Part shown: positions 6,541-32,761 of the stretch, piece by piece
Layout: the number at the start of each line of letters is the position of its first letter
Position numbering within the stretch: the first letter of the stretch is position 1
Source: a virus
IMG/VR virus record: IMGVR_UViG_3300025781_000029
Span: 1 to 34,707 of that record
Reading direction: 5' to 3' (one strand)
Length of the DNA stretch: 34,707 nucleotides
Translations under genes and position numbers: made by a program
Notes under the pieces: model-generated
Told to the model about the DNA's origin: nothing
The model's input: only the letters and a program-made list of their open reading frames with translations
Databases searched by the model: none

Positions 6541-6776
6541 GGTTTGTCCGCCTTATTGTCAAGTTTGTCGTAGATACGTTGGAACATATCCTCAATATGC
6601 TTCATTCTCTGGTCCAAATCCACCTTCAGGACATATTCCTTTGGCATATTGGCTTCCAGTTTATTCAAATCACGTTGCAGTTCTTTGACTGCGCCCCATA
6701 GTTCACGCAGGAACCACCCCGCCACCGTCAGGATTGCACCGCCAACTATGTCTATAAGGGTTTGGTAATCGGTCAT
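6537..6776 (-). CDS. small membrane-associated coiled-coil protein
   Basis: A 79-residue protein with one hydrophobic N-terminal segment (residues about 8-30, IDIVGGAILTVAGWFLRELWG), followed by a charged helix with coiled-coil character (VKELQRDLNKLEANMPKEYV, then DLDQRMKHIEDMFQRIYDKLDNKADKP). Short proteins of this design, hydrophobic patch then a MPK.YV and LDQKADK-type tail, are common between phage fibre and lysis genes and have been called holin-like without proof. It overlaps both neighbours by four bases (ATGA type), so it is translated together with the two fibre genes. It could be an inner-membrane lysis helper or a fibre accessory; the sequence does not decide. Confidence 0.7.
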   Translation of the reverse strand: MTDYQTLIDIVGGAILTVAGWFLRELWGAVKELQRDLNKLEANMPKEYVLKVDLDQRMKHIEDMFQRIYDKLDNKADKP

Positions 6777-9700
6777 GGGTGCGCGGCCTTATATGCGTCA
6801 AATTCAGCTTTAAGTTCTTGGATGGCTTTCACAAGAGCAGCAACAATTGGCCTATCGTTAAGACCAATATATGTGCTTTCTTTGTCGGAAGCATCAATAG
6901 AAGTATGCTCAACATACGCTTGTGGTATGTAATCTTTAACTTCTTGAGCAATAAAACCAAGTTCTTTTGGGCTATCCTCATCAGCATCTTTCATCCGATA
7001 AAGAGTTGGCTTTAACTGAAGAATAGCATCCAACCCGATAGCTGATGGTTCAAAATCTTTTTTCCTATTTACGTCAGATAGCGCGGTATAAGTACCATTG
7101 GCTGTATTAACGGATGCTATGTTTGCTGAACCATTATAAAGGTAAATCACGTTGCTGGTTGTATACCAACCGTACCAGTTTGTAGTGGATGTTGCAGCGG
7201 AACTTCTGTTTTCCCAAAAATACCCAGCTGCACTTCCTTTTGAAAAAGGAGCGCCATTAACCACTAAAGTTGGAAATACGATTGAGGCCGAAGTAGTGGT
7301 CGTCGTCCCCACCAGCAGATTGCCGGAGGAATCGATGCGCATACGTTCGGTAACGTTTGATGACCCAGCGGACTCCGTTGCGAAAACGAGAGAGCCAGCG
7401 TAACCTGTTGCATTGTAACTTTCGTAAAAACCGTATACACCAGCTAGCTTCGCGCTACCACTGCCGTTCCTATTAAAAAATTCAATGCCGGAAGTTTCCC
7501 CAAGAGCCGAACTTTGCGAATTGACAACACTAACTACCGCAGTTGAAGAACCAACTGTCGTTGATGTGCTTGCTTTTGAAACTTGCAGTATTGTGCTTGG
7601 CGAAGTCGTCCCAATGCCTACGTTGCCGCTGGTGTCGATACGCATCGCAGATGCAAGCGTATTGGCTGTAGTGCCTGTTGATCCAACTGGGGCAACTTGG
7701 AAATCAATGTATCCAGAGCCGCCCGTGCCTGTGCCGTTACCTGCATATAGCGATAAATTACCGCCAGTGATGTTGGTTCCCGTGCCGTTTGGCGAACGGA
7801 TAATAGAAGCACTTGGCGTAGCACCCGCATCACCACGGCCCAAAATAAAGACAGGACTTGCTGAAATATCAAGTTGGGCGGCTTGCGTACCGTTTGTGTA
7901 GAACGATAGCGGCAAATACGTACCCGTGCCGTTGATACCCGACACCAACTGAACGTCTGTGGAGCCGTTCGTCGCAATCAAAATTTTGGATGCGTTGGTA
8001 GGATTAGCGGCATTGGTTGCTTGCCAAGAAGCAGCCGTGGATGTGCCGTTAGGCAGCGCATAAATGCCCGTTGTGCCGTTGGTTGTACTTGTTTGGAAAG
8101 CCAGACGATTTGTGATGGTTGCGTTGGTAAAATCACCAAGAATACGCGCACCAGTTCCAGTAAACGTCTCGTTACCGCTATTGCTGACACTGCCCGTTGT
8201 TAAAGCCGTAACCGTAGGCGAATTAGACCATGCAGGAGCGACACCAACGCCGCCGGACACAAGAACTGATCCCGTAGCAACGTCAGCCAGTTTGGATAGC
8301 GTTGTAGAAGCAGAAGCGTACAGAAGATCGCCAACCGTGTAGGACGTGATGTTTGTGCCGCCAGAGGCTACAGGAACCACGCCGCCAAGCGTTGCAAGCG
8401 TAACCGTCGTCCAAGATGGAGCGGCAGACGCGCCACCAGACGTTAAGAACTGACCGGACGTGCCGTATGTAGCGCCACCAATGCCTAACTGACCCGCAGG
8501 GCCAAAGCGGAAGGCTTCCGTTGGCGAGTTTGCGCCAGTGGCGGTTGTAAATACAGACGCATATGTACCCTGCGCCGTATCCGTAAAGTTTTCGGCCGCC
8601 GTAATATCAAACCGTCCCGTAGACGCGGTAGCAAATCCAGTTGCGCCATAACCACGACCCGTAAACTGAGCCAGTGTATCACCAGACTGCGACGCAGTAG
8701 GCGAAGCCGCCGTGCCACGGGCCATACGTGCAGTGAACACACCGTAAGCGCCAGTGCCGTAAGCATCTTGCGTAATACGGGTATTAGCAGCATTTGCGCC
8801 AACAATGTACAAGTCAGTACCCGCAGGGAGCGTAGCCGTTGGCGTGGTCGTCTGTGTATTGGAAACAACCGTCAACTGCGTCTGTGGTGTGGCGGTGTTA
8901 ATACCCAAACGGTTGTTGGTGTTATCCCAGAAGAACTTAGCATTGTTCTGGCTGTAAACGCCAGATGCACCCGCAAATACGACGGAGCCAGTGGTAAAGG
9001 CCGTTGAAGTACCCGTGCCGCCATTGGCAACGCCCAAAGTTCCAGTAACACCTGTTGTTAAAGGAAGACCCGTAGCATTAGTTAGCACAAGCGCAGTTGG
9101 CGTTCCCAGTGCTGGAGTTACAAGTGTTGGCGACGTAGAAAGAACAACTGAACCAGAACCTGTGGAAGTTGTTACACCTGTGCCACCTGCCAAAACAGGC
9201 AATGTACCAGCCGTTAAAGCAGATGAAGATGTTGAATAAATAGCATTATTGGCTGCTGTAAATGTGGTTAAACCAGTTCCACCATATCCAGTTGCGATAG
9301 TTGTTCCGTTCCAAACACCCGCAGTAATTGCGCCGCTTGTGCCAATCGTCATGGCATCCGTTGCGCCGTTATTTACTACAAAGTGAATAGCATTATTTGT
9401 CGTTGTACCAATAGCAAGGTCAGCGGATGTCGCATCAAGATAAACAGTATTAGGTGCGTTAAATGCACCCGATCCTGCAAATGTTGAAGAATTCATCCCC
9501 AATTCGCCATAATACGTTGATGACGTACCAAGGTTGTTGGAAACAATAAAGTTTGTGGAGGCAGTGCTGCCGGAATTGGTGTTTTGAAGCACCATTTCGT
9601 TATAGGTGTTTACGCTATTGGTATAAGACGCAAAGATATTCGTATCGCTATAGCCAAGCGTACCGTAACTATAAGCACCTGCGTTCAGCGCACTGGCAAG

Positions 9701-12352
9701 CGAACCGTTGGCGGTCACATAGGTAAACGCACCCGTAGAAGGCGTTGTTGCGCCCACCGTGCCGTTAATGCCGCTGACCCAAGATGCAGTCGTGCCGTTG
9801 GATGTTAAGATTTGTGTATTCGTACCAATGCCCAAGCGGGTTGCACTGTTCGTGCCGTTCCCAATAATTAAGTCGCCCGTTGTGGTAATTGGCGAAAGCG
9901 CATTGAATGCAGCGGATGCAGTTGTCTGGCCCGTGCCGCCAAACGAAATACCAACGGTGCTAAGGCCAATGGTATTACCAGTCTTGGTGATAGGTGCAGA
10001 TACGGTGATATTACCGGAAGAAGATGTCTGCACCCACACAAGAGATGTAGTGCCAACCGTAATCGTGCCAGTCGTATTCATAACCCATGAGGTTGAACCC
10101 CATGTTGTGCCACCGCTAACAAATGTAGAAGCGCCAGTTTCAATAAAATTAGGGCCAGTGCCGACCGTGTTAAAGTCAGTTGCACGGGTAAGAACCCAGT
10201 TGGTTGAACCAGAACCAAGTGTTGTGACGGTATAAATACCGTTCTGTGCGCCAGTGCTTTGGTCTTTAACAAGAATGCGGTCATTTAATGATGCAGTATA
10301 ACCATCAACAGCAAAAGCGGCCTGTGCGCCACTATTGGTAAGCGTAGCGCCAACACCAGCAGTTCCGTTGTTATACGTGGCAGTCAGATTGGCCGTAGTA
10401 GCCGCCGCAGAAGCCGTATGGAATGTCGTATTGCTGACAGCAGAAACCTGACCATCAACATATTGTTTGGTGGACAACTGCAACGCGGAAACTGGGTCTT
10501 GCGTAACCGTAACCGTTGTTAAACCAGACAACGTAGCCACTGTAGCACCCAGTGATACAGATGTCGTTCCAAGCGTAATAGATGAATTGGTTAGACCAGC
10601 GTTAGGAATAGTAGCCGATGCCGTAACCGCGCCAGTGCCGTTACCAAATAGATAACCACTGAGAGTAGACGCACCCGTACCACCATTGGCGACAGGAAGA
10701 ATGCCAGTAACGCCTGTTGTGAGCGGCAAGCCTGTAGCATTGGTTAAGATAGCCGCAGATGGTGTGCCAAGGGCTGGCGTAAGAAGTGTTGGCGAATTTG
10801 ACAACACTACAGAACCAGTTCCCGTGGATGTTGTAACGCCCGTGCCACCTGCCGATACTGGCAATGTCCCTGATGCAAGAACGGAAGAAGATGTTGCGTA
10901 TAAAGCGCCACCAGATGTAAATGATGTAAGACCGGTACCGCCGTTTGTCGTTCCAAGCGTACCCGTAACACCCGTCGTTAAAGGAAGACCTGTTACGTTT
11001 GTCATAACGCCTGATGACGGTGTACCAAGAGCCGGAGTGACTAAAGTTGGCGAATTTGACAACACTACGGAACCAGTTCCCGTGGATGTCGTTGTTCCCG
11101 TACCGCCAGATGCTACAGGCAATGTGCCAGTGGTAAAAACAGACGTGGACGTTGCATATAAAGCACCGCCAGAAGTAAACGACGTAAGGCCCGTACCACC
11201 ATTGGCCGTTCCAAGCGTACCCGTCACATGAGTAGAAAGACCAATTTTACCCCAAGACGGAGCAACGCCGACCCCTCCAGAAATAAGAGCATTGCCAGTA
11301 GCCACGTCATTAAGACGGGCCAAGGTGGAAGATGACGAAGCATAAAGAAGGTCACCCGTCGTATACGATCCATAGCCCGTGCCGCCCTGCGTTTCAGATA
11401 ATGGCGTGGTCAGGCCAGAAAGGGATGTAATATCGCTATTTGCACCTAAAGATGCCGCACTAAGGTTTGCCCTTGCAGTTGACGCTGTGGTTGCGCCTGT
11501 GCCGCCATACAGAATACCAATAGGATTTCCCTGCCAAGTGCCGGAACTAATTGTTCCAATAGACACCGTTCCAGTAGCTGTAAGATTGGTAAACGTACCT
11601 GCCGCAGCAGTAGTCCCGCCAATAACCGTTTGGTCTATTGTTCCGCCTGTAATCGCAACGGCGTTAGCGTTTTGGGTAGCCATCGTACCAAGGCCAACCA
11701 CTTGGCTTGGCGTAATAGAAATGGTTACGCTATTGGCGGTTGTAATTTGTCCTTGAGCGTTAATTGCTATCCGAGGAACAGTTGATGCCGTACCGTAGGT
11801 CTGTGCTGATACCCCAGTATTAGCAATCGCAATCGTTCCGCTTGTGGTAATTGTTCCACCGGAAAGACCCGTTCCAGCCGTGATTGATGTAACACTACCA
11901 AATCCGTAATTAAGGGATTTAACATAAGCTGTTGTTGCCAACGAGGTGCTATTGTCACTTGACGCAGGTGTAGGTGCTGTTGGATTTCCTGTAAATGCAG
12001 GAGACGCTAAAGGTGCAGCGCCTAACAAAGTCATTGTTTGTGCAACAGTTAAATCTTGAGGCTGCGCTGGACTTGCTGAATTGTTACCCTTGATTGACCG
12101 GGCGGCCATATTGGCGAGGTAAGTATTGTCTATGCTGTTTGTATTTAAGCCAATCGTACCCGTTGTGGTAATAGTGCCGCCAGACAATGGCGATTGAGCC
12201 GTGATCGATGTTACAGTACCGCCATTGGCGTTGAGGTTTGCAACCTGCTGCGCTGTCGCGCTCGATGACACGCCATTTTGAACCACCATAAGCTGGGCGG
12301 AACCGCTTAACGAAGTTAGAACTGGGAGGTTGGTAACGGTAATGTTGCTCAT
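6773..12352 (-). CDS. giant tail fibre with C-terminal S74 self-cleaving chaperone
   Basis: A 1859-residue Thr/Ser/Gly/Asn-rich fibre, the largest gene in the window. Residues 1-45 form the attachment head (MSNITVTNLPVLTSLSGSAQ). Most of the rest is thread-like beta repeats marked by about eleven GGTG turns and three copies of an 86-residue-type unit with SNSPTLVTPALGTP and TNATGLPLTTGVTG. Near the end there are GIGTTSPS and ERMRIDSSGNLLVGTT modules. The last 100 residues (from Asp1760; SDVNRKKDFEP, LKPTLYRMKD, LGFIAQEVKDYIPQA, KAIQELKAE) are an S74 intramolecular chaperone, expected to trimerise the fibre and cut itself off between Ser1759 and Asp1760. It overlaps both neighbours by four bases. 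Confidence 0.9.
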   Translation of the reverse strand: MSNITVTNLPVLTSLSGSAQLMVVQNGVSSSATAQQVANLNANGGTVTSITAQSPLSGGTITTTGTIGLNTNSIDNTYLANMAARSIKGNNSASPAQPQDLTVAQTMTLLGAAPLASPAFTGNPTAPTPASSDNSTSLATTAYVKSLNYGFGSVTSITAGTGLSGGTITTSGTIAIANTGVSAQTYGTASTVPRIAINAQGQITTANSVTISITPSQVVGLGTMATQNANAVAITGGTIDQTVIGGTTAAAGTFTNLTATGTVSIGTISSGTWQGNPIGILYGGTGATTASTARANLSAASLGANSDITSLSGLTTPLSETQGGTGYGSYTTGDLLYASSSSTLARLNDVATGNALISGGVGVAPSWGKIGLSTHVTGTLGTANGGTGLTSFTSGGALYATSTSVFTTGTLPVASGGTGTTTSTGTGSVVLSNSPTLVTPALGTPSSGVMTNVTGLPLTTGVTGTLGTTNGGTGLTSFTSGGALYATSSSVLASGTLPVSAGGTGVTTSTGTGSVVLSNSPTLLTPALGTPSAAILTNATGLPLTTGVTGILPVANGGTGASTLSGYLFGNGTGAVTASATIPNAGLTNSSITLGTTSVSLGATVATLSGLTTVTVTQDPVSALQLSTKQYVDGQVSAVSNTTFHTASAAATTANLTATYNNGTAGVGATLTNSGAQAAFAVDGYTASLNDRILVKDQSTGAQNGIYTVTTLGSGSTNWVLTRATDFNTVGTGPNFIETGASTFVSGGTTWGSTSWVMNTTGTITVGTTSLVWVQTSSSGNITVSAPITKTGNTIGLSTVGISFGGTGQTTASAAFNALSPITTTGDLIIGNGTNSATRLGIGTNTQILTSNGTTASWVSGINGTVGATTPSTGAFTYVTANGSLASALNAGAYSYGTLGYSDTNIFASYTNSVNTYNEMVLQNTNSGSTASTNFIVSNNLGTSSTYYGELGMNSSTFAGSGAFNAPNTVYLDATSADLAIGTTTNNAIHFVVNNGATDAMTIGTSGAITAGVWNGTTIATGYGGTGLTTFTAANNAIYSTSSSALTAGTLPVLAGGTGVTTSTGSGSVVLSTSPTLVTPALGTPTALVLTNATGLPLTTGVTGTLGVANGGTGTSTAFTTGSVVFAGASGVYSQNNAKFFWDNTNNRLGINTATPQTQLTVVSNTQTTTPTATLPAGTDLYIVGANAANTRITQDAYGTGAYGVFTARMARGTAASPTASQSGDTLAQFTGRGYGATGFATASTGRFDITAAENFTDTAQGTYASVFTTATGANSPTEAFRFGPAGQLGIGGATYGTSGQFLTSGGASAAPSWTTVTLATLGGVVPVASGGTNITSYTVGDLLYASASTTLSKLADVATGSVLVSGGVGVAPAWSNSPTVTALTTGSVSNSGNETFTGTGARILGDFTNATITNRLAFQTSTTNGTTGIYALPNGTSTAASWQATNAANPTNASKILIATNGSTDVQLVSGINGTGTYLPLSFYTNGTQAAQLDISASPVFILGRGDAGATPSASIIRSPNGTGTNITGGNLSLYAGNGTGTGGSGYIDFQVAPVGSTGTTANTLASAMRIDTSGNVGIGTTSPSTILQVSKASTSTTVGSSTAVVSVVNSQSSALGETSGIEFFNRNGSGSAKLAGVYGFYESYNATGYAGSLVFATESAGSSNVTERMRIDSSGNLLVGTTTTTSASIVFPTLVVNGAPFSKGSAAGYFWENRSSAATSTTNWYGWYTTSNVIYLYNGSANIASVNTANGTYTALSDVNRKKDFEPSAIGLDAILQLKPTLYRMKDADEDSPKELGFIAQEVKDYIPQAYVEHTSIDASDKESTYIGLNDRPIVAALVKAIQELKAEFDAYKAAHP
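10686..11231 (-). repeat. 86-codon repeats within the giant fibre gene
   Basis: Two tandem units with a period of 258 bases (86 codons) contain 44-base stretches differing at one position (10788-10831 and 11046-11089). Each encodes the SNSPTLVTPALGTP and GLPLTTGVTG motifs. A third, more diverged copy lies at about 9000-9190. Such repeats extend the fibre shaft and can change number by recombination. Confidence 0.8.
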
Positions 12353-14857: not shown

Positions 14858-15256
14858 TTACTTACCTTTTTTTGCGCCTGAAGGGGAAACAGGCCACGAC
14901 CTTCTTGTCGGACTTGTTTTTTCCTTAGACATTGTTTGTTTTTCGGACTTGGACATAGAAGATGCCGCATGAGCGGGCCTACAAGCAGGATATGGACGAC
15001 TGGATTTTTCACTACCCGATCGACCGCATGCCTCACCTGTCTTTATGTCTTTCCAGTCCTCGTGAAACCATTTACCCAAACCGCCGCCAGAATCTTTTTT
15101 GACGCGATTATCGTCACCGGACCAGTGGCCACCGTGTTCTTTATACCACTTTGACGCAAAAGCATTAGCATAAGCCGATGGATACACATCAAATTTGGCA
15201 CGGGCAGCGGCCTTTGCTCGACCCCATAGACCAGCGTTTTGCGCTTTAGCAGACAT
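14858..15256 (-). CDS. DUF5872-like basic protein
   Basis: A 132-residue lysine-rich protein. The centre (KKDSGGGLGKWFHEDWKDI, then CGRSGSEKSSRPYPACRPA) matches the conserved core of DUF5872: a GGL.KWF.E.W.D motif, a CGR and a YP.CRP element. That domain is known from phages and from large eukaryotic DNA viruses, and its function is unknown. The N-terminal 50 residues (AKAAARAKFDVYPSAYANAFASKWYKEHGG) form a separate helical block that is also common in phages. The tail is Ser/Lys-rich (TSPTRRSWPVSPSGAKKGK). The ATG overlaps the stop of the 27-residue gene upstream (TAATG). High net positive charge suggests nucleic-acid contact, possibly as a packaged protein. Confidence 0.75.
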   Translation of the reverse strand: MSAKAQNAGLWGRAKAAARAKFDVYPSAYANAFASKWYKEHGGHWSGDDNRVKKDSGGGLGKWFHEDWKDIKTGEACGRSGSEKSSRPYPACRPAHAASSMSKSEKQTMSKEKTSPTRRSWPVSPSGAKKGK

Positions 15257-15628: not shown

Positions 15629-16030
15629 TTAATCGTGTTCTGGCTCGTACGAGTGATGAGCCTTTGGCTCTTTACCCGGATTTGCCGAGGACAATGGGTT
15701 CATATCCGATGCACGACCGCCTGCCTTACGTGGCTTACGATCGCCGCGGTGATGAGCCATTTTACCCATAGCCATACCAACGTGGTGCTTTGCCTTACCG
15801 CCATGCTTACGCTTTTTTGCTTCCACTTCAACGTGGGAACCTTTGCCTGCGTAAACTTCTTCTGGCGACGAATCGTCAGCGAAGTGGCCTTCCATGTCCG
15901 ACTCCACGTCATGATGCATGACATGGCCACCCTTGGCGTGAGCCGCACGAGGGTGTTTGTGATGCACTTCATGCCCATAGTGATGGGCTTTTCCACCGTG
16001 CATATGGTGATGTGCCTTGTGACCCTTCAT
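15629..16030 (-). CDS. histidine-rich KKGG-motif protein
   Basis: A 133-residue protein of unusual composition: the first 40 residues are dominated by His, Lys and Gly (KGHKAHHHMHGGKAHHYGHE). An acidic stretch follows (HDVESDMEGHFADDSSPEE), then further HGGKAKHH and RKPRKAGGRASDMNP motifs. The GG-(K/R) motifs, especially the DRKPRK(A/S)GG(R/K)A block, are shared with the 821-residue protein at 21224-23689, although the rest is unrelated. The His clusters could bind metal ions such as Zn or Ni; that is inference from composition. It has an AAGGAG ribosome site and is followed at once by a terminator, so it closes the coat-protein transcription unit. The function is unknown. Confidence 0.75.
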   Translation of the reverse strand: MKGHKAHHHMHGGKAHHYGHEVHHKHPRAAHAKGGHVMHHDVESDMEGHFADDSSPEEVYAGKGSHVEVEAKKRKHGGKAKHHVGMAMGKMAHHRGDRKPRKAGGRASDMNPLSSANPGKEPKAHHSYEPEHD

Positions 16031-20504: not shown

Positions 20505-20897
20505 TTACCAAACATAATCCGGCGACTGAATACGCGCACGAATTGTATAATCTTCCAAAATACGGCACGGAGCACCGTTTACTGCTAACGCCCAACCATC
20601 GGATGGACGGAAAACAACCCAATCGCCTTCTTTGATAGATACATCCTTAAACCATTCGCCTTTTTCATCTTTAAAAGCGACAGGACCAACCTTTAATACC
20701 AAGCCAACTTTGCCTTGATACTTGTCTTCATCAACGGTTTTGTCGGTGAGAATGATGCCGGATTTGGTTTTGGTTGGACGGATATAGATACCAACAAGGA
20801 TTTGGTTGTTAAAAAGTTGAAAGTCTTTGAGATCACCAATTGCTTCTTTAATTTCAACTGATGGGTCTACTGTGTGTTCCATCTTCATAGGAGGCAT
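20505..20897 (-). CDS. phage-encoded GroES-like co-chaperonin
   Basis: A 130-residue protein with a Cpn10 fold signature. The first strand (NNQILVGIYIRP) precedes a mobile-loop equivalent (TKTKSGIILTDKTVDEDKY) in which the tripeptide IIL stands at the place of the IVL that inserts into GroEL. Strands typical of the barrel follow (GKVGLVLKVGP, KEGDWVVFRPSDGWALAVNG), ending CRILEDYTIRARI like the GroES closing strand. Like T4 gp31, such proteins replace or supplement host GroES so that large phage coat proteins fold in host GroEL. It lies directly upstream of the scaffold gene, whose ribosome site overlaps its stop. Length exceeds the roughly 95 residues of bacterial GroES, with an extra N-terminal 28 and a short C-terminal tail. 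Confidence 0.88.
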   Translation of the reverse strand: MPPMKMEHTVDPSVEIKEAIGDLKDFQLFNNQILVGIYIRPTKTKSGIILTDKTVDEDKYQGKVGLVLKVGPVAFKDEKGEWFKDVSIKEGDWVVFRPSDGWALAVNGAPCRILEDYTIRARIQSPDYVW

Positions 20898-21223: not shown

Positions 21224-23689
21224 TTAACGAGATTCATAGTAGGCCCTTCGTTCACTATCCGACATCATGTCCAAAGTATTTTTTTGTGTCCTTGGCATAG
21301 GACTATATTTTGGTGGAGTATAATTGTCATATCGACGTTGCCAACCAGCGTGTTCTTCCGTTCCGGGCGGATGCGGATTTGGTGTTTTTTGAGATGTACC
21401 CATATCCCTTGCAGCGGCAATTTGAGGATAATCTCGAATCATTTTATCATGCTGTTCATAAAATTCTTTTAAACGACCACCAGAATTACGACCTCTTGGT
21501 GTTTCGAGACCGTAGGCTTCTATTTTTTCCAATCGAGCATTGGCACCACCTGAACCCGTATCAATTGGATAGGCGCGGCCACCTGTCTTGCGGCCCATAG
21601 GCAAAGGCATTTGAGGCATAGCCGGACGAGAACCGCCCATCTGTGGCATCTGAGAACCGCCCATAAAAGGCGCTCCCGGCTGCATACCGCCTATTGGACG
21701 AGGCATTTGGGGCATGCTACCTTGTTGTGGATATCCCGACATACCACCTATTGGACGAGGCATTTGGGGCATCTGAGGCATTCCGCCTTGTTGTGGATAT
21801 CCTGACATACCGCCAATTGGACGAGGCATTTGGGGCATTCCGCCCATAGTCTGCGAACCACCTGCAAAATTTCCGCCAAACGCTTTAGCAATACGCCCAC
21901 CCTTTTTAAATGCGCCGGGCATTCCGCCTTGCGGAGGCATACCCTGTGGAGGCATACCTTGTGGAGGCATACCCTGTGGCATTGGTGGTTGTTGTTGAGG
22001 AATACGAGGCGACGCAGAAGCATTAGGAAGCGGAGCACCACCCATCATGCCAGTAGGCTGCTGACCTTTACCTGCAGCAATAATGATGTTGACGTTGGTT
22101 TTACCCTTGGTTTTTCCGCCCGCTGCATGAGCCATACGGCCACCCGGAACTACACCCGGTACTTTTTCCTTAGAATTACCGTCAAACACACCACCGCCGG
22201 AATACTTGCCCATGCGGCCACCCATGCACTTTTTGCAAGAGCAATCCTCATGATGCATCGCTTTTCCACCATCGGCGCGGCGGCTAAATGGCTTGTCAAA
22301 GTAATTTAAGTCGGGACCAGACATATCACCACGAGCCATAGCGGCTTCGCGTCTCGGATCCATTTTACCTTGGGCCTGCAACCGACGTTGGGCGGCTAAT
22401 TGTTGTCCAGCCCGTGTTCCTGCATCCTCTGCCTTTTTAATCAACTCTTGCAAAGGAGTTAATTTTGTTGGGCCGCCATCTGCCTTAAACGCTTTAGGCT
22501 TAAGGATCTTGTGCATCAATTCTTTATCCTGTGCCTCGTCTGAATGGCTTGCTTTACCACCATGCTTGCGGCCAGTTTTTTGTTTTGTTTCTTTTGAGAA
22601 CGCCAAGAAGTCAGGTTGTTTACCACCACGCTTCATCAATTCCGTCATGGTTTTGATGTCGGCTTTTGTACCCATTAATTTGTTCATGCCGGGTTCAGAA
22701 GCCATGTGCTCGCCATGCTCGCCATATTCTGACGGGTGATACATGCCCTGTGGATACATTGACTTGCGTACGTTCTTCATCATGGCTTTTTGAACTTCGC
22801 CACCCGACGCGTGATGCATGCCACGTAAAGTTTCAGCAAGATGTGCCTTCTTGGCAAGTTTGCCACCCTTTTCTTCGGCTGCATGCAGCTTTTTCATAGG
22901 GATTTTCTTGCCTTCAGGAACCTTTAACGCCTTATGGAGCGAGCCGGGATGCTTAATAGCGTCCTGTATCCACTTGACCTTGTGGCCATCGGTTTTACCG
23001 CCGTGTTTACGGGCCATAGGATAATCAGGAGACTGCCGTGGGTTACGTGAAAGCATTTCAGTAATTTGAGCAGCACCCTCGCTATAATCTGGGCCAGTAT
23101 AGTAACGATCTACTGACACATTAGGATTATAGTCTTGTTCAATACCCGTTGGTTTGAATGGCTTTGGCGCTTCCTTTTTTTCAATTGGCAAATATGAAAG
23201 GTCCGTACCGCCTTTGGCTTTATGAGCACGGCCACCCTTTTTCATCATGCCAGCGGCTTTGCCCATCATCTCGTTTTGTTGACCCACTGGGTTCATGCCA
23301 ATAGGACCGCCACCTAGTTTTTGTGCCTTGCCACCCTTTTTAAACGCACCTTCGTGCTTTACGCCTTCGCGCATATCATTAGCCATCCGCACGTCACGGT
23401 TAATCAAATCATCAACCCATGGTGCCTTGTGCTCTGCCTTACCACCGCTCTTACGAGGTTTACGATCGGCACGGAACTCTGCCTTTTTGCCTTCTGCTTT
23501 CCCAACGACCTTGCCGCCCTTCTTATAAAGACGCTTTACAAGGGGACGAGCGCCCGTTTTCTTGTCAGCTTCTAACAGGGGGGCGGGTGACCATGAAGAC
23601 GAATCAACCTTTTCGCTAGGATCCGCGGATGTGAGGCGCTTGGCTTTAGCCCTCATTGCATTCCGCGCAGTTTTGGCGGCTTCAGACAT
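21224..23689 (-). CDS. giant KKGG-motif, Met/Pro-rich protein of unknown function
   Basis: An 821-residue, strongly basic, low-complexity protein. It carries about a dozen short [KR]xGG[KR] motifs spaced through the chain (YKKGGKVVGK, FKKGGKAQKLGGG, MKKGGRAHKAKGG, RKHGGKASHS, FKKGGRIAKAFGG, GRNSGGRLKEF). Near residue 490 there is a His/Cys cluster (HHEDCSCKKCMGG) able to bind a metal. Residues about 575-675 are Met/Pro/Gln/Gly repeats (GMPPQ units; MPQMPRPIGGMSGYPQQG). The C-terminus is more ordinary (DKMIRDYPQIAAARDMGTSQ). No catalytic domain is seen. The start is ATG 23689 with GGAG; a TTG four codons earlier is less likely. It lies between the other giant and the 66-residue gene in the head block, so an internal virion or DNA-binding role is inferred only. 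Confidence 0.72.
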   Translation of the reverse strand: MSEAAKTARNAMRAKAKRLTSADPSEKVDSSSWSPAPLLEADKKTGARPLVKRLYKKGGKVVGKAEGKKAEFRADRKPRKSGGKAEHKAPWVDDLINRDVRMANDMREGVKHEGAFKKGGKAQKLGGGPIGMNPVGQQNEMMGKAAGMMKKGGRAHKAKGGTDLSYLPIEKKEAPKPFKPTGIEQDYNPNVSVDRYYTGPDYSEGAAQITEMLSRNPRQSPDYPMARKHGGKTDGHKVKWIQDAIKHPGSLHKALKVPEGKKIPMKKLHAAEEKGGKLAKKAHLAETLRGMHHASGGEVQKAMMKNVRKSMYPQGMYHPSEYGEHGEHMASEPGMNKLMGTKADIKTMTELMKRGGKQPDFLAFSKETKQKTGRKHGGKASHSDEAQDKELMHKILKPKAFKADGGPTKLTPLQELIKKAEDAGTRAGQQLAAQRRLQAQGKMDPRREAAMARGDMSGPDLNYFDKPFSRRADGGKAMHHEDCSCKKCMGGRMGKYSGGGVFDGNSKEKVPGVVPGGRMAHAAGGKTKGKTNVNIIIAAGKGQQPTGMMGGAPLPNASASPRIPQQQPPMPQGMPPQGMPPQGMPPQGGMPGAFKKGGRIAKAFGGNFAGGSQTMGGMPQMPRPIGGMSGYPQQGGMPQMPQMPRPIGGMSGYPQQGSMPQMPRPIGGMQPGAPFMGGSQMPQMGGSRPAMPQMPLPMGRKTGGRAYPIDTGSGGANARLEKIEAYGLETPRGRNSGGRLKEFYEQHDKMIRDYPQIAAARDMGTSQKTPNPHPPGTEEHAGWQRRYDNYTPPKYSPMPRTQKNTLDMMSDSERRAYYESR
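21688..21838 (-). repeat. in-frame tandem repeats in KKGG giant (MPRPIGG unit)
   Basis: Three near-identical 25-base copies of a segment encoding MPRPIGG (plus-strand core TTGGACGAGGCATTTGGGGC) lie at 21691-21715, 21748-21772 and 21814-21838, spaced 57 and 66 bases apart. The longer spacing contains nine extra bases encoding MPQ. The DNA-level identity points to recent in-frame expansion, likely by slippage or unequal recombination. Confidence 0.85.
21927..21980 (-). repeat. 15-base tandem repeats encoding GMPPQ
   Basis: Plus-strand units CCTTGCGGAGGCATA, CCCTGTGGAGGCATA and CCTTGTGGAGGCATA follow each other directly, then a partial fourth. On the coding strand they encode repeated GMPPQ. 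The unit length is a multiple of three, so copy-number change would keep the frame. Confidence 0.85.
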
Positions 23690-23705
23690 ATGATTCTCCA
23701 AGGAG

Positions 23706-26456
23706 TTAGTAGCGGCGTCCCGCTTTTGCTGCCATGAGGGGAAAGTCTAATGCTGGCAACGGAGCACTGACTCTATTGAGCGCCTGCTCAACAATTGCGG
23801 TATTATGCAGGGAACGACGTGATTTTGCAACGCCACCCTTCTTGAACGGCTCATCTACCAATTGGTAAGTGCCGTCAGGCATCAATTTTCTAACCTTACG
23901 GGTTTGGTTTAATCCTTGACGCTGATTTGCAAGACCCGATTGAATGCCAAGAAGATCATATTGCGCTTTAGTATAAGCGTCGGACGGGCTAATTCCTTGA
24001 TCAGTATAAGTTTTGGCTTTGTTGGAAACCCATGATGCGCTATCTAAACCAAATGGTTTCAATATGTTATCCAGTAAATTGCCTTCTCCGTATCCTGCAG
24101 GATTGACAGGCGGTAGCGGAACGTTTCCGGGCGCTGGCATAGGCTGTGGCGTTGACCCCAGTATAGCCTGATCGGGCCTTGGCGTAGGGAGTGGAGCGTT
24201 TAAAATAGACTGGTCTGGACGCGGCGTTGGCAATGGAACATTAAGTGTCGGATTTACGACAGGCTGCGTTGGTGTTCCCGGTGTAGGTATTGGTTCAGGT
24301 TCGGGAGGTTGAATTGCAGCAAGAAGTGATTCGTCCGGTGTGCCAGTAGCAGAACGTAATTCAGGGGGCGTGGGTTGGCCAGCGGCTAGAATGGATTCCA
24401 GCGGCGTACCCGTAGCAGAACGTGGCAATTCAAAAGATTCGCTTGCCAATGGTGGGATATTAAACGTTGTTCCTGCACCCGTTGGTGTTGCAAACGCAGT
24501 GTTCATTTGTTCTGCAGCAGCTTCAGCGGCGTTTGCCTTAGCCGTATCTTCAGTAGTACCAGTTCCACGGGTTAACCCCGTTGGGGCTACATCCGCCTTT
24601 CCACTACCAAGCACCGCATTTAATGTTTCATTTTGTCCTACAAACGACCTTGCAAGCTGCGGCGGGTTATCTTTAGCTTCTGCGGGGGACACAAAAAAAT
24701 TACCAATTGCATTTGCAACTTCACCCGCTTGATCCATAAACGAGTTGCCGCCTTTATTTTCGTTTTCGCTTGGGGATGGCGCGTCAGATTCGGCACGTTC
24801 GGTTTCTCCTCGGCTAACAGCATTTAATGTTTCGTGTTCTCCCGCTTCACCACCGTCGTCAAAATGAGTACGGCCACCTGCTGCAAAGTTATTACGCTCT
24901 TCAATAGTAAAATCATTTAACCGATGGCGTATGGTGCGTTGCACATGATCATCCTGATCAACAACAGGTTTATGCCAATGAATAGTTCCCATCTTGGGAA
25001 GTTCATTTGCTTCCTCGGACACCTTGGATGATATAACGCCTACGTCCTCTGGGTCTTTCTCAGGGTGCAGTAAAGCGTGTGGCTGTACGGGTTCATCGCC
25101 CATACCAATATCGTCTTCATGCCAAATGGACCCCTCAACTTTACCACCCTTCTTGTACGCTACACGCCCACCTTTTTTAAACCCGTATTTGGATTGGTTT
25201 TTTATTCCCATTAAAACACTTTCAAGCCATGGCTCATCAATGTTTTGCAGCAACTTCTGCTCTTCTGTCATCTTCTTAAACCCAGAACGAGCGTTAGGAT
25301 TTTCAGAATATGGATGCAAAACGCCCGGCTTATGCGGCTCTTCGGCAAATTGTTTTACTGCTTCCGGTAAAGCATAGTGGCGCTGAACCAATGGTATGTC
25401 TGCCACATAACGGCCGCTTGTTATTTCTGGATATGTATTGTGTTCAAACGCGGATGCCTCGATGCTCTGTGGCGTAAGTTCAACCACTCGATGACCAATC
25501 ATATTACCGCCAGTTTTAAGCAGTTCTGGATCCGTCAATGCTACTCTGGTCATACCAACATGAGGGAACCCTGCCTTGTGATATCCAGACTTATCCATGT
25601 GTTTAACAATAAGACTGCGTGTAGTACCCGGTAATGTCTTTAAAAAGTTTCGTGCAGCCCATGGATCATCAAGGCCCGGCCACTCTTTCATTTTTTCAAC
25701 AGCCTTATCGCGTTTAGCAGGCTCTTCAAACAAACCAGCACGAAGTTCTTTATCAAACTTTTTAACCATTTCTGGTTCTGGTTTTTGTTTAGCCAATTGC
25801 GACATAAGCGCGTCGGACATTTGGAACGATGAATCAACCGACTTTGGACCCATGGGAGAATACACTCCGTATACTGGTCCTTTTCTTTGCAAATCTTCAA
25901 TTAATCTTTTGTTTCTCGTCGTCTGTCCCGCGGCATTAGCCCACACCGCACCCTTATTGGGTTCAAGCATGTATTGCGGACCCGCATGGAGATCGACAGG
26001 CCAAGCCAATTCCTGCCCATGGATATGCGTAAGCCGCCCCAACCTAGAACGATCTCCACCAAGATTAACCAGTGTTCCGCCTTTAGCGGTTTTATAAAAC
26101 TGTTCGTATGTTTGCTTTTGCGGATTAAGCGGATTAACGCCGGGTATTGGATTTACTGTAGCTTGAACGTTTTCAGGGCTAGTGGGTGTTCTAAAACTAT
26201 AAAAAGATTGCCCAAGGTTTGGCTCATAATCAGAAGTTAATGCGTGGGTCTTTTGTGCAATACCAAGTGCTTTTTCCCGCATGGCAGGGTCTTCATGTTC
26301 AATCGATGGTATAGCCTCTAACCGTTGACGAACAATATCATTCTCAGGTGATCCACCGTCCTTATAGCCATCAACGTCTCCGCCAGTGTTTACGGAATCC
26401 CGCTCATGCCATATTGAGCCTTCCACTTTACCACCTTTGCGGTAGGCGCGGCGCAT
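23706..26456 (-). CDS. giant KKGG-motif protein with polyvalent-protein-like domain
   Basis: A 916-residue protein directly after the portal gene. It begins RRAYRKGGKVEGSIWHERDS. Residues about 130-380 form an ordered domain with GDRSRLGRLTHIHGQELAWP, AGPQYMLEPNKGAVWANAAG, GPVYGVYSPMGPKSVDSSFQ, MSDALMSQL, MDKSGYHKAGFPHVGMTRVA and GRYVADIPL. The wording resembles a domain I recall from large polyvalent (ejected) proteins of phages and conjugative elements. Near residue 440 the opening motif recurs (YKKGGKVEGSIWHEDD), as if two related proteins fused. The C-terminal half is Pro-rich and probably disordered (LPTPRPDQ twice), ending with FKKGGVAKSRRS. The start is ATG 26456 overlapping the portal stop (TGATG). 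The function is unknown; ejection with DNA is a possibility. Confidence 0.72.
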   Translation of the reverse strand: MRRAYRKGGKVEGSIWHERDSVNTGGDVDGYKDGGSPENDIVRQRLEAIPSIEHEDPAMREKALGIAQKTHALTSDYEPNLGQSFYSFRTPTSPENVQATVNPIPGVNPLNPQKQTYEQFYKTAKGGTLVNLGGDRSRLGRLTHIHGQELAWPVDLHAGPQYMLEPNKGAVWANAAGQTTRNKRLIEDLQRKGPVYGVYSPMGPKSVDSSFQMSDALMSQLAKQKPEPEMVKKFDKELRAGLFEEPAKRDKAVEKMKEWPGLDDPWAARNFLKTLPGTTRSLIVKHMDKSGYHKAGFPHVGMTRVALTDPELLKTGGNMIGHRVVELTPQSIEASAFEHNTYPEITSGRYVADIPLVQRHYALPEAVKQFAEEPHKPGVLHPYSENPNARSGFKKMTEEQKLLQNIDEPWLESVLMGIKNQSKYGFKKGGRVAYKKGGKVEGSIWHEDDIGMGDEPVQPHALLHPEKDPEDVGVISSKVSEEANELPKMGTIHWHKPVVDQDDHVQRTIRHRLNDFTIEERNNFAAGGRTHFDDGGEAGEHETLNAVSRGETERAESDAPSPSENENKGGNSFMDQAGEVANAIGNFFVSPAEAKDNPPQLARSFVGQNETLNAVLGSGKADVAPTGLTRGTGTTEDTAKANAAEAAAEQMNTAFATPTGAGTTFNIPPLASESFELPRSATGTPLESILAAGQPTPPELRSATGTPDESLLAAIQPPEPEPIPTPGTPTQPVVNPTLNVPLPTPRPDQSILNAPLPTPRPDQAILGSTPQPMPAPGNVPLPPVNPAGYGEGNLLDNILKPFGLDSASWVSNKAKTYTDQGISPSDAYTKAQYDLLGIQSGLANQRQGLNQTRKVRKLMPDGTYQLVDEPFKKGGVAKSRRSLHNTAIVEQALNRVSAPLPALDFPLMAAKAGRRY

Positions 26457-28780
26457 CACTTAGAACCCGTAATAGCAGGTATAACATTGCCAAGAAGATT
26501 ACGTACGATTGCATCGCTTTCAGGATGCACGGCTATGTTTTGCGCCAAGTCAATCATTTGAATACGCTCTTTAGCAAGCATTTCCTCTTCACCAACCCGA
26601 GCCTTCATGGCGTCGTTATGCATACCAGCGCCCAATTCTACGCCCTTAAACTTTGTATCCATAACCTTGGCATCAGCTAATTTGTTTTTAATCGCCAACT
26701 CCATGCGCTCAATGTCCGTAGGCCCACCAAGCCCCTTCAATTGTTCCTGCATTACACGAGCCTTATCAAGATCGGACTTGGCTTGATCAAGCATTAACTT
26801 TCCTTGTACGGCTTGCGCTTTTGTATCTGCTTCTTGTTTTTTAAGCTGCAGTTCAGCAATTGCTTTTTGCATTTCTGGTGGTGGATTACCACGCGCAGAT
26901 GCAGGAATCATAAACTGTTCAGGATTAGACCAACCCACTGCCTGCAATGCAGCCGTATCAATTGCAATTGGGTCATACATAGATGGGTTTTGCGCTTGTA
27001 TCTGCTTTAACGCCATAACCTTCATGAGACGCTGGGTCTGCGATGCCGTGTTAGGATCCGCCTGTGGCACCAGATCAACCTGATCCAATGCACGGAAAAA
27101 CGTCTCTTCATCCCACTTACGCGCAGGCTTGCGGTTCTTTTGCCAGAACGAATTTGGGTTTTCACGGAAGCACTGTACTAATAACTCAAACTCTTCCGCT
27201 TGCGATGCATGCATACGCTTGTGTACCGAGTTCAAAACCTTGGTGGCTTGGTCAATGAGCGCAATCGTGGTTCCCACAGGGGCGTCTTGCTTGCCTTCGC
27301 CTACGGCCTGTTCTGCAGTTCCACCGACACGCATACCCGTTTGGTTGATGTTCTCCACCAGCGACATGAGACCACCGCCCACATCCTTGTAAGGCAACGG
27401 CATTACGGCTTGGCTAATTGGCATACCGCCCGTCTTGACCAATGCTCCACCGCCGGGTGGCACACGGAATATGTTAGTATTCTGCCTTGCACCTGTGTCG
27501 GCATACAGAAAACCGGGGAAGTTGGCGTACATACCAGCGTCAAGCATTTCACGCCAAGCGGCCGTCAGTGCGTTGGTTGTGTTGCCTAGGATGTGCAGGA
27601 GACCCAGATCATAAAAGCCCATCCCCGGTACAAAGGTGTACTTGACGAAGTTCTGGCGGGGTTCAGGTAAATCTTTAGTATCTTCGTCATAGTTTCTGAC
27701 AATGGATAAGATTTCTTTTGATGATACATCGATGGTTACTCGGTATGGGATTTCCAAGCCCGTGTCCCTGCCATTATGGCGGTGCTCAAATCCCTTGATA
27801 TTCAATTCACAATAGCACTCATAGATTTCGCGGTCACGATCGTCAGGATTGGTTTGATCTGCTGAAATACCCTGCTGTGCTTTCTTTTCCCGTTGTGCGG
27901 CATCCAGTTGGAACATCTTTGGAGCGGACAGGTCTATTTCGCGGTATACACCAAGGATCTGCATCCGCTTAACTGTTGACGGGCGCATGTAGATACGGTG
28001 GGTGATACGTTTGGCGTTGGACAGATCGGTTGCCGCATTGTTAACGATCAGATCATCGGCATCGACGCTTTCGCTAACTGGACGACCGCGTAGGGGACAG
28101 AAATATACCTTCTTGAACGCCGTCCCGCCAAAGCCCAACATGAGGAGCATTCGGTCGGTATCAGGGTAATACTCTTTGGCAGTGGCCGTGAGGTAGTGGT
28201 TGAGGTCGTTTTCAAGGTCATTGGCAAGCTGGTCGGAGGCAAAGTCAGCATTGTTGTTGTCCTCCCTGATCTTTACGGGTCCATCCGTAGGCAATAGTTC
28301 TGACCGAGCATTGGCTTGGAAACGTAGCACTGCCTCGAGCAAGAGCGGGTGCCGAACGCGAGACATACCTTCAACGGGGGCGTTGTCTGCTGCCCCTGCC
28401 AGACCGGGGATTTCCACCTTGAGACCAAGAAGTTTAATGCCTTGAGCACGGTCGTCTATCCATTCTTTGCGGGAGTCTAAGTCGTCTTGGATGCCCTTGA
28501 TGAGATCAAAGGATATGGCGGATAAGTCGGCTTGGTCTATTCTATGGACCAGATTATCAAACCACCCTTCGGTGCCATCCTCTTCTGCCCTTTGTAAGGG
28601 TGACCCGTCCAAGGTGATGGTAATGGCCCCATCGGGGGTCTCAATCGACATAAGGTTGCCGTGCTCGTCATAGCCCTGTTCTGGCCCGTCTTCGACCATT
28701 TCTATCTCAATACCGTCAATATCCTCATGAACAGGCGAAGGATCCGCTGGTAAGCGTAGGTTGGACGGTGCGAGTGGCAT
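26456..28780 (-). CDS. portal protein (P22/SU10-like)
   Basis: A 774-residue portal that forms the 12-fold ring at the head vertex through which DNA enters and leaves. After an acidic N-terminus, typical segments follow: LLEAVLRFQANARSELLPTD (about 150-170), YYPDTDRMLLMLGFGGTAFK with a following FCPLRGRPV, and DDLIVNNAATDLSNAKRITH, then PGMGFYDLGLLHILGNTTNA and PGGGALVKTGGMP in the stem/crown. Residues about 640-774 are a long helical barrel (IAELQLKKQEADTKAQAVQG and following), as in long P22-type portals. It follows the large terminase by 3 bases. Its stop overlaps the start of the KKGG giant, so the two are translationally coupled. Confidence 0.9.
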   Translation of the reverse strand: MPLAPSNLRLPADPSPVHEDIDGIEIEMVEDGPEQGYDEHGNLMSIETPDGAITITLDGSPLQRAEEDGTEGWFDNLVHRIDQADLSAISFDLIKGIQDDLDSRKEWIDDRAQGIKLLGLKVEIPGLAGAADNAPVEGMSRVRHPLLLEAVLRFQANARSELLPTDGPVKIREDNNNADFASDQLANDLENDLNHYLTATAKEYYPDTDRMLLMLGFGGTAFKKVYFCPLRGRPVSESVDADDLIVNNAATDLSNAKRITHRIYMRPSTVKRMQILGVYREIDLSAPKMFQLDAAQREKKAQQGISADQTNPDDRDREIYECYCELNIKGFEHRHNGRDTGLEIPYRVTIDVSSKEILSIVRNYDEDTKDLPEPRQNFVKYTFVPGMGFYDLGLLHILGNTTNALTAAWREMLDAGMYANFPGFLYADTGARQNTNIFRVPPGGGALVKTGGMPISQAVMPLPYKDVGGGLMSLVENINQTGMRVGGTAEQAVGEGKQDAPVGTTIALIDQATKVLNSVHKRMHASQAEEFELLVQCFRENPNSFWQKNRKPARKWDEETFFRALDQVDLVPQADPNTASQTQRLMKVMALKQIQAQNPSMYDPIAIDTAALQAVGWSNPEQFMIPASARGNPPPEMQKAIAELQLKKQEADTKAQAVQGKLMLDQAKSDLDKARVMQEQLKGLGGPTDIERMELAIKNKLADAKVMDTKFKGVELGAGMHNDAMKARVGEEEMLAKERIQMIDLAQNIAVHPESDAIVRNLLGNVIPAITGSK

Positions 28781-31810: not shown

Positions 31811-32740
31811 TCATAAGACGTACTGCCCTCGGAACACTGGACGACCGTTAATCAGTTCGCAGAGTTCTGGGGGCATCATTATACCCTCTTCATCAAATGT
31901 AAGAATGGCAAACCCCTGCTGCGCTCTAGACGGTGCTCCTTCTGTGTATTGGAACTGGGGACCATGTGGATCGGCAAGAGTGCCAGTTTCTACGCCCCAG
32001 CGGGATCCACGACGATCTCGGACAGCAGTGACCTGTAATTGGTGGGTGTGGCCCGTAACCATGCTAATTCCCGCGTGTTGGGAAGAGTTATAGGCCGAAT
32101 GGATCCCTGATCGGAAACGATGGCGTATTTCTGTCCCGTTGATTTCAAACCCCCACGCAAATTCCCAGTCTGTGAAGTGTTCCGCCAAGGACATGATGTA
32201 TCCGTCGAGTTCTCCTGCGTTTGAGGCAATGTATGTGTCAATTCTAATGTCGTGGTTTCCCATGGTCCACAGACGGTGACGGGTTTTTGGGAGTAGTTTG
32301 AGCCATGCCTTGGCGGTTTCGATTTCTTTTTCAATCTTTGGTGCTCGTGACCCACGGGTCGGTGTGTGCCTTGAGATCCTAGCGCCATCAATGACGTCTC
32401 CGTTGAGGATGATTCCATCTACTTTGATCATCTTACATACTTTAACGAAGGCTTTATAAATCAGCGGTGGGTCACCGTCCCATATGTGGATATCAGATCC
32501 AACGGCCCATACACTTGACGGGATCTCTTTTGAGATCATGCGGGGATACATCCATTGGCCCATAGTCGGGGTGTCTGGCAATCCATCAGGAAACTCTTGG
32601 AACGCCCGTTCGAGACGGCAATCGAATGTCTTGCGAGGAAGGTTAGAGGCTCTTGCCGCGGATGCTATACTTCTTCCACATGCCTCATAGATGCGTAGGG
32701 TTTCAATCATAATCTCTTTTGATAATCTGTACATTGCCAT
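31811..32740 (-). CDS. HTH-metallophosphoesterase (calcineurin-like)
   Basis: A 309-residue two-part protein. Residues about 5-45 form an HTH-like segment (RIYEACGRSIASAARASNLP) similar to DNA-binding resolvase/transposase helices. The rest is a calcineurin-like phosphoesterase with the ordered metal-binding motifs SDIHI, LNGDVIDG, MGNHDIRID and TGHTHQ, and a GVETGTLADP segment. The two metals would be held by D, H, N and H residues of these motifs, all present. Phage enzymes of this type may act on nucleic acids or cyclic nucleotides; the substrate is unknown. ATG 32740 is chosen because GGAGA stands at proper distance; ATGs at 32755 and 32752 lack a ribosome site. It follows a terminator at 32762-32787. 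Confidence 0.85.
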   Translation of the reverse strand: MAMYRLSKEIMIETLRIYEACGRSIASAARASNLPRKTFDCRLERAFQEFPDGLPDTPTMGQWMYPRMISKEIPSSVWAVGSDIHIWDGDPPLIYKAFVKVCKMIKVDGIILNGDVIDGARISRHTPTRGSRAPKIEKEIETAKAWLKLLPKTRHRLWTMGNHDIRIDTYIASNAGELDGYIMSLAEHFTDWEFAWGFEINGTEIRHRFRSGIHSAYNSSQHAGISMVTGHTHQLQVTAVRDRRGSRWGVETGTLADPHGPQFQYTEGAPSRAQQGFAILTFDEEGIMMPPELCELINGRPVFRGQYVL

Positions 32741-32761
32741 AGTGGTCTCCATCATATAGGC

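Follow-up and report, generated by a model that had tools for sequence, protein, structure and literature searches.

Gly-Gly motifs in terminal tags of interchangeable head-region proteins of aquatic phages: candidate virion-loading signals

The locus described here raises the question of why three proteins from the head region of one phage share a short motif built around two adjacent glycines. The window, i.e. the whole stretch analysed (positions 1 to 34,707 of IMG/VR record IMGVR_UViG_3300025781_000029), is 34.7 kb in length and is a viral record in its own right, representing a fragment of a tailed phage. A search with its portal protein places IMG/VR viral contigs and a Manatee Spring phage genome as the closest relatives. 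Based on Pfam and PHROGs profiles, the minus strand encodes a terminase, an SU10-type portal, proteins of 916 and 821 amino acids (P916 and P821), a GroES-like co-chaperonin, a scaffold-like protein, a Mu gpT-like capsid protein, a His-rich protein and an SU10-like adaptor. An earlier note, which gave the coordinates and lengths of P916, P821 and the His-rich protein correctly, had described in them a 'Lys-Gly-Gly code' and proposed a common partner or targeting signal. With modest confidence, we favour the view that the shared motifs belong to tags for loading proteins into the virion, likened to the capsid-targeting sequences (CTS) of phages T4 and P1. The features on which the argument depends are as follows.

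26456-28780, minus strand: SU10-type portal, marking the start of the cassette
23706-26456, minus strand: P916, a mosaic effector-type protein and the first gene past the portal, with N-terminal, central and C-terminal copies of the motif
21224-23689, minus strand: P821, a basic multi-motif protein, predicted to be mostly disordered
20505-20897, minus strand: phage GroES-like co-chaperonin (Cpn10), marking the end of the cassette
15629-16030, minus strand: His-rich basic protein of 133 amino acids, in a cluster of small genes downstream of the capsid genes

The motif is far more frequent than composition would give. Relative to composition-preserving shuffles, [KR]xGG[KR] occurs nine times in P821 (0.42 expected), three times in P916 (0.08 expected) and twice in the His-rich protein (0.06 expected), with no copies in the other 30 window genes tested, so the repetition reported in the earlier note is real. 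The related pattern [FY]xxGGx[VIA] is found five times in P916 (0.07 expected) and three times in P821 (0.10 expected), and is not present in the His-rich protein. Residues flanking every Gly-Gly were compared in 80 portal-related contigs among P821 orthologs, post-portal genes and all others. Phenylalanine or tyrosine at -3 and valine at +2 are enriched up to ~4-fold in P821 and the post-portal proteins, and up to ~3.4-fold in P916 and its relatives; the remaining proteins show no F/Y pattern and a weaker valine preference (1.9-fold). Enrichment of lysine or arginine is confined to the P821 family (positions -3, -2 and +1). In P916 and its relatives these residues account for 12-16% of positions -2, -1 and +1 versus 12% in the background, i.e. 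at or near background, and a lysine-based motif was rejected on these grounds. The three profiles therefore indicate a common core of hydrophobic/aromatic-x-x-Gly-Gly-x-Val with lysines added in P821, and the name 'Lys-Gly-Gly code' is a misnomer. Lys-Gly-Gly triplets are also seen in the KGG repeat of the general stress protein GsiB (PF10685); the context differs and that profile does not match the three proteins, none of which has any Pfam match.

BLAST of P916 and P821 against 50,697 phage records returned few relatives, and the comparison was therefore built on metagenomic viral contigs. In these, the genes between the portal and GroES make up an interchangeable cassette encoding effector-type (polyvalent) proteins, with mosaic bodies and recurrent short terminal tags. 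The number and size of the genes from the portal to P821 vary between relatives. Pfam identifies ART-PolyVal, the ADP-ribosyltransferase (ART) of polyvalent proteins, in 17/40 relatives, and InPase, peptidases M15 and M23, a cell-wall hydrolase and GNAT in others. The usual tag consists of a short helix beside hydrophobic-x-x-Gly-Gly-(x-Val), and may be N- or C-terminal. Recurrent N-termini include MNDAIRLAKSVKPVARVRLSEGG, MSKDVLGIARSVKPVMRVKLAKGG and similar sequences, while at least four types of C-terminus recur, each behind Gly-Gly, and P916 ends in one of these. At least one tag is present in 57 of 69 full-length cargo proteins (by hidden Markov model, HMM, or regular expression) and, by regular expressions alone, in 92 of 1692 control open reading frames (ORFs; 5%). 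Position-free HMMs of three C-terminal tags matched the terminus in 22/22, 11/11 and 9/9 closed ORFs, and that of an N-terminal tag was terminal in 20 of 25 cases, the other five being internal copies where units appear fused. Reversed sequences gave no matches to the tag HMMs. The GroES-like co-chaperonin itself is kept at the same place in the relatives examined.

Within P916 the tags and the joints between domains can be located as follows.

26403-26444, minus strand: N-terminal tag YRKGGKVEGSIWHE, residues 5-18, recurring at residues 434-447
25185-26360, minus strand: conserved domain, approximately residues 33-424, from sequence comparison with relatives
25116-25181, minus strand: internal double motif FKKGGRVAYKKGGKVEGSIWHE, residues 426-447, closing the conserved domain
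23709-23846, minus strand: C-terminal tag FKKGGVAKSRRSLHNTAIVEQALNRVSAPLPALDFPLMAAKAGRRY, type c1, the type at the C-terminus in all 22 closed ORFs matched by its position-free HMM

The YRKGGKVEGSIWHE-type tag also recurs near the C-terminal tag in three relatives (L032, L034 and L041). The block KGGKVEGSIWHE appears twice in P916 with 12/12 residues identical, but only 38/60 bases match over the block and its flanks. The peptide has been kept while the DNA has drifted, and the repeat is therefore not a DNA site, nor does it stem from a recent duplication. The conserved domain shows 41-95% identity to differently built proteins in relatives, each joined directly behind a Gly-Gly. A domain marked by SPE[DN]DIVRQRL is fused straight after Gly-Gly to different N-termini in contig L010 and in P916. 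An AlphaFold2 model of the conserved domain is of medium-low confidence (mean predicted local distance difference test, pLDDT, of 57) with disordered Gly-Gly ends, and Foldseek searches with it returned only uncharacterised phage proteins, with no solved relative.

P821 is syntenic, lying between the variable effector genes and the GroES gene. Each of the 38 orthologs found has 2 to 10 KxGGK motifs (truncated copies counted in), and conservation is higher in the Gly-Gly columns than in the rest (0.87 vs 0.55). AlphaFold2 predicts mostly disorder, with 495/821 residues at pLDDT <50, together with an N-terminal helix predicted with confidence and one helical module. P821 is best explained as a disordered multi-motif internal protein. 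Its features, and the matching block of the His-rich protein, are given below.

23630-23683, minus strand: N-terminal helix of P821, residues 3-20, AKTARNAMRAKAKRL, supported by ortholog conservation and a pLDDT of ~80
23507-23527, minus strand: first motif of P821, YKKGGKV, with GGKV invariant in 21 aligned orthologs
23435-23467, minus strand: block DRKPRKSGGKA of P821
22757-22984, minus strand: helical module of P821, WIQDAIKHPGSLHKAL...AETLRGM, residues 236-311 (phrog_15706, 9e-5; pLDDT ~85)
15710-15742, minus strand: block DRKPRKAGGRA of the His-rich protein

Other phages have the helical module in a separate small protein, where FKKGG precedes it, as in gp44 of HTVC027P. The block DRKPRK(A/S)GG(K/R)A is present in both P821 and the His-rich protein, as the earlier note had it, and is encoded with different codons. 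These two proteins have a local homologous block in common (relatives match each other with E of 1e-3 to 1e-5), and the description of the three as otherwise unrelated therefore does not fully hold for this pair. In relatives, the position of the His-rich gene is occupied by tagged small proteins.

Scans with FKKGGKV and ADGCAxxGKT extended the family to marine and freshwater phages. As these loci were selected by motif, the counts that follow are informative on linkage and placement and are not readable as prevalence. The C-terminal tag [FYM]KKGGKV-SSASKRADGCAxRGKTRG closes small proteins in 237 ORFs, lying within 35 residues of the C-terminus in every closed ORF, with Gly-Gly just upstream in 236. 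The tagged bodies fall into 104 families, and all 60 loci with at least two tagged bodies contain differing families. For pairs of this tag in one contig, codon identity is 51%, close to the 41% expected from codon usage. Repeated tags have diverged at synonymous positions, and selection therefore acts on the peptide. Homologs of the window's head/neck module are found in 134/137 of the C-tagged loci and 98/119 of the FKKGGKV loci, and the median distance from C-tag to adaptor is 0.9 kb. Peptide BLAST of the C-tag against deposited phages gave no match; however, a variant was found in Planktothrix phage Pag-Yong1. Across two sets of loci (L202-L314 and L087-L200), SASKRADGCAxRGKTRG is carried by >100 small phage protein families near neck genes.

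Portal homologs are present in eleven named isolates and in several genome records of uncultured phages. In Roseobacter phage CRP-902 (L315, OQ401624; 7550-12801) four of the proteins encoded from portal to GroES start with MANP[VI]KGAIxxLGexVI. These have 7-15 of the first 18 residues in common, while similarity is undetectable past residue 25, and the set includes a PBECR5 nuclease and a GNAT acetyltransferase. CRP-901 (L320) has two such N-tagged proteins, bearing MANPVKGAISQLG and MGNPLKDFIGDLG. In DSL-LC04, a PcfJ-like protein opens with three tandem motifs, FAMGGPV, MADGGLV and FAEGGEV. No effector cassette lies between portal and GroES in Alcaligenes QDWS535, Planktothrix Pag-Yong1 or Caulobacter RW; these have the same head module, and the cassette is therefore accessory. 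Pam1, the virion proteins of which have been mapped by mass spectrometry, was considered as a close relative and rejected, its gene map having neither a GroES gene nor an effector cassette. Separately, the records OL906435, PP438419 and OQ594354 (L328; Planktothrix, Planktothricoides and Synechococcus hosts) are 65,014 bp each and identical across the 1.8 kb compared, and are possibly a single phage deposited with three different hosts.

The motif tracks head type rather than enzyme. Contigs were fetched by ART domain alone and then split by detectable head module. [FY]xxGGx[VIA] is found in 25 of 27 ART proteins with this head module (50 copies, 2.9 expected), and in 4 of 43 without a detectable one (6 copies, 2.9 expected; Fisher p ~1e-12). 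Part of the difference is due to a single ART C-terminal site, KRKYxxGG versus KKYG. When this site is left out, 36 copies in 18/27 proteins compare with 6 in 4/43, with ~3 expected per set. Another lineage (L364, L368, L375, L381, L404, L406 and others) has ART-PolyVal effectors whose ends carry motifs of the PV[DE]HDPF type. There are 22 copies, seen on ART proteins only, of which 20 lie no more than 60 residues from a terminus (~5 expected), and PV[DE]HDPF is possibly a third tag family.

The tags, their placement, the peptide-level selection, the link to head type and the effector-type cargo together lead to the virion-loading reading, within which we infer packaging and injection, a partner on which the tags dock, and a hub role for P821. 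During head assembly, the tags would dock on a component of the head module, which could be the scaffold, the portal, the inner capsid surface or P821; in the last option P821 would act as a multivalent hub on DNA. Docked effectors would be packaged and later injected together with the DNA, the address being conserved and the cargo variable. The common partner or targeting signal of the earlier note is strengthened to this extent, in that the motif is located in terminal tags and effector joints, and its occurrence goes with the head module from phage to phage. A more general claim is put forward tentatively: aquatic phages with this head module might load many unrelated effectors by interchangeable terminal address tags (hydrophobic-x-x-Gly-Gly with either a short helix or a conserved basic tail), so that injected effectors could be read from sequence. 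The address would have lineage-specific versions, such as MANPVKG in CRP-902 and, possibly, PV[DE]HDPF in the other lineage.

Several observations weigh against virion loading. The tag regular expressions were written post hoc, with the sequences already in view. Most tagged bodies are connected in one network through shared domains, and recombination of gene ends therefore accounts for part of the sharing. In the window's group, tags recur between phages more than inside one, and a search for similar termini within one contig was essentially negative (1/838 protein pairs). The head-negative contigs in the ART comparison are partial and may simply be incomplete. No known effector domain was matched in P916. 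Finally, the T4 and P1 signals are N-terminal, whereas the tags described here are at both termini.

T4 internal proteins are diverse and only the CTS is conserved (PMC3012670). The likeness lies in a short conserved terminal sequence on diverse head-region proteins, which in T4 are packaged and injected while the cargo turns over (PMC3012670). Here too, the same short terminal sequence is found on several unrelated head-region proteins, with the strongest within-genome cases being the marine C-tag and CRP-902. However, the tags are placed at N- or C-termini, are of several types around hydrophobic-x-x-Gly-Gly, belong to a different head lineage and would be packaged only by inference, so this family is not to be filed as a T4 CTS. 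In P1, the N-terminal 30 residues of DarB are sufficient for packaging, a terminal signal on a large polyvalent-type protein that directs it into the head (PMC9024508). The P1 Dar proteins have no mutual consensus by BLAST (PMC9024508), whereas the tags here are readable and common to several proteins. Polyvalent proteins, described by Iyer, Burroughs, Aravind and colleagues in 2017, are predicted to be packaged and injected (PMC5512222). As reported there, ART-PolyVal, InPase, PBECR, GNAT and peptidase domains occur in large proteins by portal/terminase genes (PMC5512222), and the window cassette likewise lies beside such genes. A term search of the same paper found neither a terminal tag nor a Gly-Gly motif shared between proteins (PMC5512222). 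A literature search by title and abstract, with most subscription journals outside its coverage, found no description of the motif or of shared virion-loading tags. Capsid targeting of injected proteins is already known; the tag family, its use of two termini, its spread and its readability from sequence appear to be undescribed in the searchable literature.

One alternative is nucleic-acid binding, in which basic, Gly-rich disordered segments condense or hold packaged DNA as in viral core proteins. The isoelectric points of P821 (10.0) and the His-rich protein (9.4), together with the K/R enrichment at -3, -2 and +1 in the P821 family, are compatible with this, and one module is weakly similar to a fusellovirus VP2 model (E 0.056, short of the cut-off). 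DNA, which the earlier note had listed as a partner, may be bound by the two basic proteins; plain binding of DNA through lysines is not supported for the effectors. P916 has an isoelectric point of 6.1, and effector flanks lack lysine enrichment by Gly-Gly and may be acidic (FDDGGEA, YKDGG, YAEGG). Moreover, binding by charge needs neither a positional aromatic/Val pattern nor strict terminal placement, and as an account of the motif it is unlikely.

It is also doubtful that the motifs are protease sites, in line with the processing signal that the earlier note had allowed for, at which a maturation protease would cleave after xxGG, freeing tags or splitting fused effector units. Cleavage at Gly-Gly is carried out by other viral proteases (adenovirus, asfarvirus), and the motifs lie in predicted disordered stretches adjoining domains. 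P1 Dar proteins undergo processing (PMC5512222). Against this, no protease was found by Pfam or PHROGs among the TerL-to-capsid genes of the window, the record being a fragment. P821 would fall into a dozen pieces, and the conserved sequence beyond Gly-Gly in the extreme C-terminal tags suggests that the distal peptide matters.

Neutral joints, i.e. flexible linkers or recombination joints of shuffled domains with no binding function, would fit the strong mosaicism and the domain junctions exactly at Gly-Gly in P916 and L010. This too seems improbable given the synonymous divergence of repeated tags, both in the P916 repeat and in codon identity of the C-tag pairs. Tags are at termini, where a linker is unneeded, and their presence depends on head type. 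That P821 and the tagged proteins serve in head assembly, as a core or scaffold, instead of carrying cargo would suit their location by GroES and scaffold-like genes and the synteny of P821 kept in the group, and is very improbable because the cassette is accessory.

Molecular detail on which proteins phages pack and inject comes from very few systems. A tag readable from sequence would make hundreds of uncharacterised lake and ocean phage proteins predicted injected effectors, and would offer a transferable means of getting proteins into phage heads. Cultured relatives (Roseobacter CRP-901/902 and Pelagibacter HTVC023P/027P) make the question directly testable.

A host search with P821 in 84,980 genomes matched only eight metagenome-assembled contigs of mixed taxonomy, which are probably mis-binned phages, and anti-phage defence profiles gave no convincing match. 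Elsewhere in the window, a DUF5872 protein (14858-15256) consists of two halves, KVYPSAYAN... and KWFHEDWKDIKTG..., which are separate adjacent genes in Phage C72C1 and Pelagibacter phage HTVC027P. Upstream of the terminase lies a calcineurin-like phosphoesterase (31811-32755), the N-terminal end of which matches a helix-turn-helix. Lastly, a 1859-amino-acid protein (6773-12352) carries a C-terminal S74 chaperone-of-endosialidase domain and is probably a tail fibre or spike.
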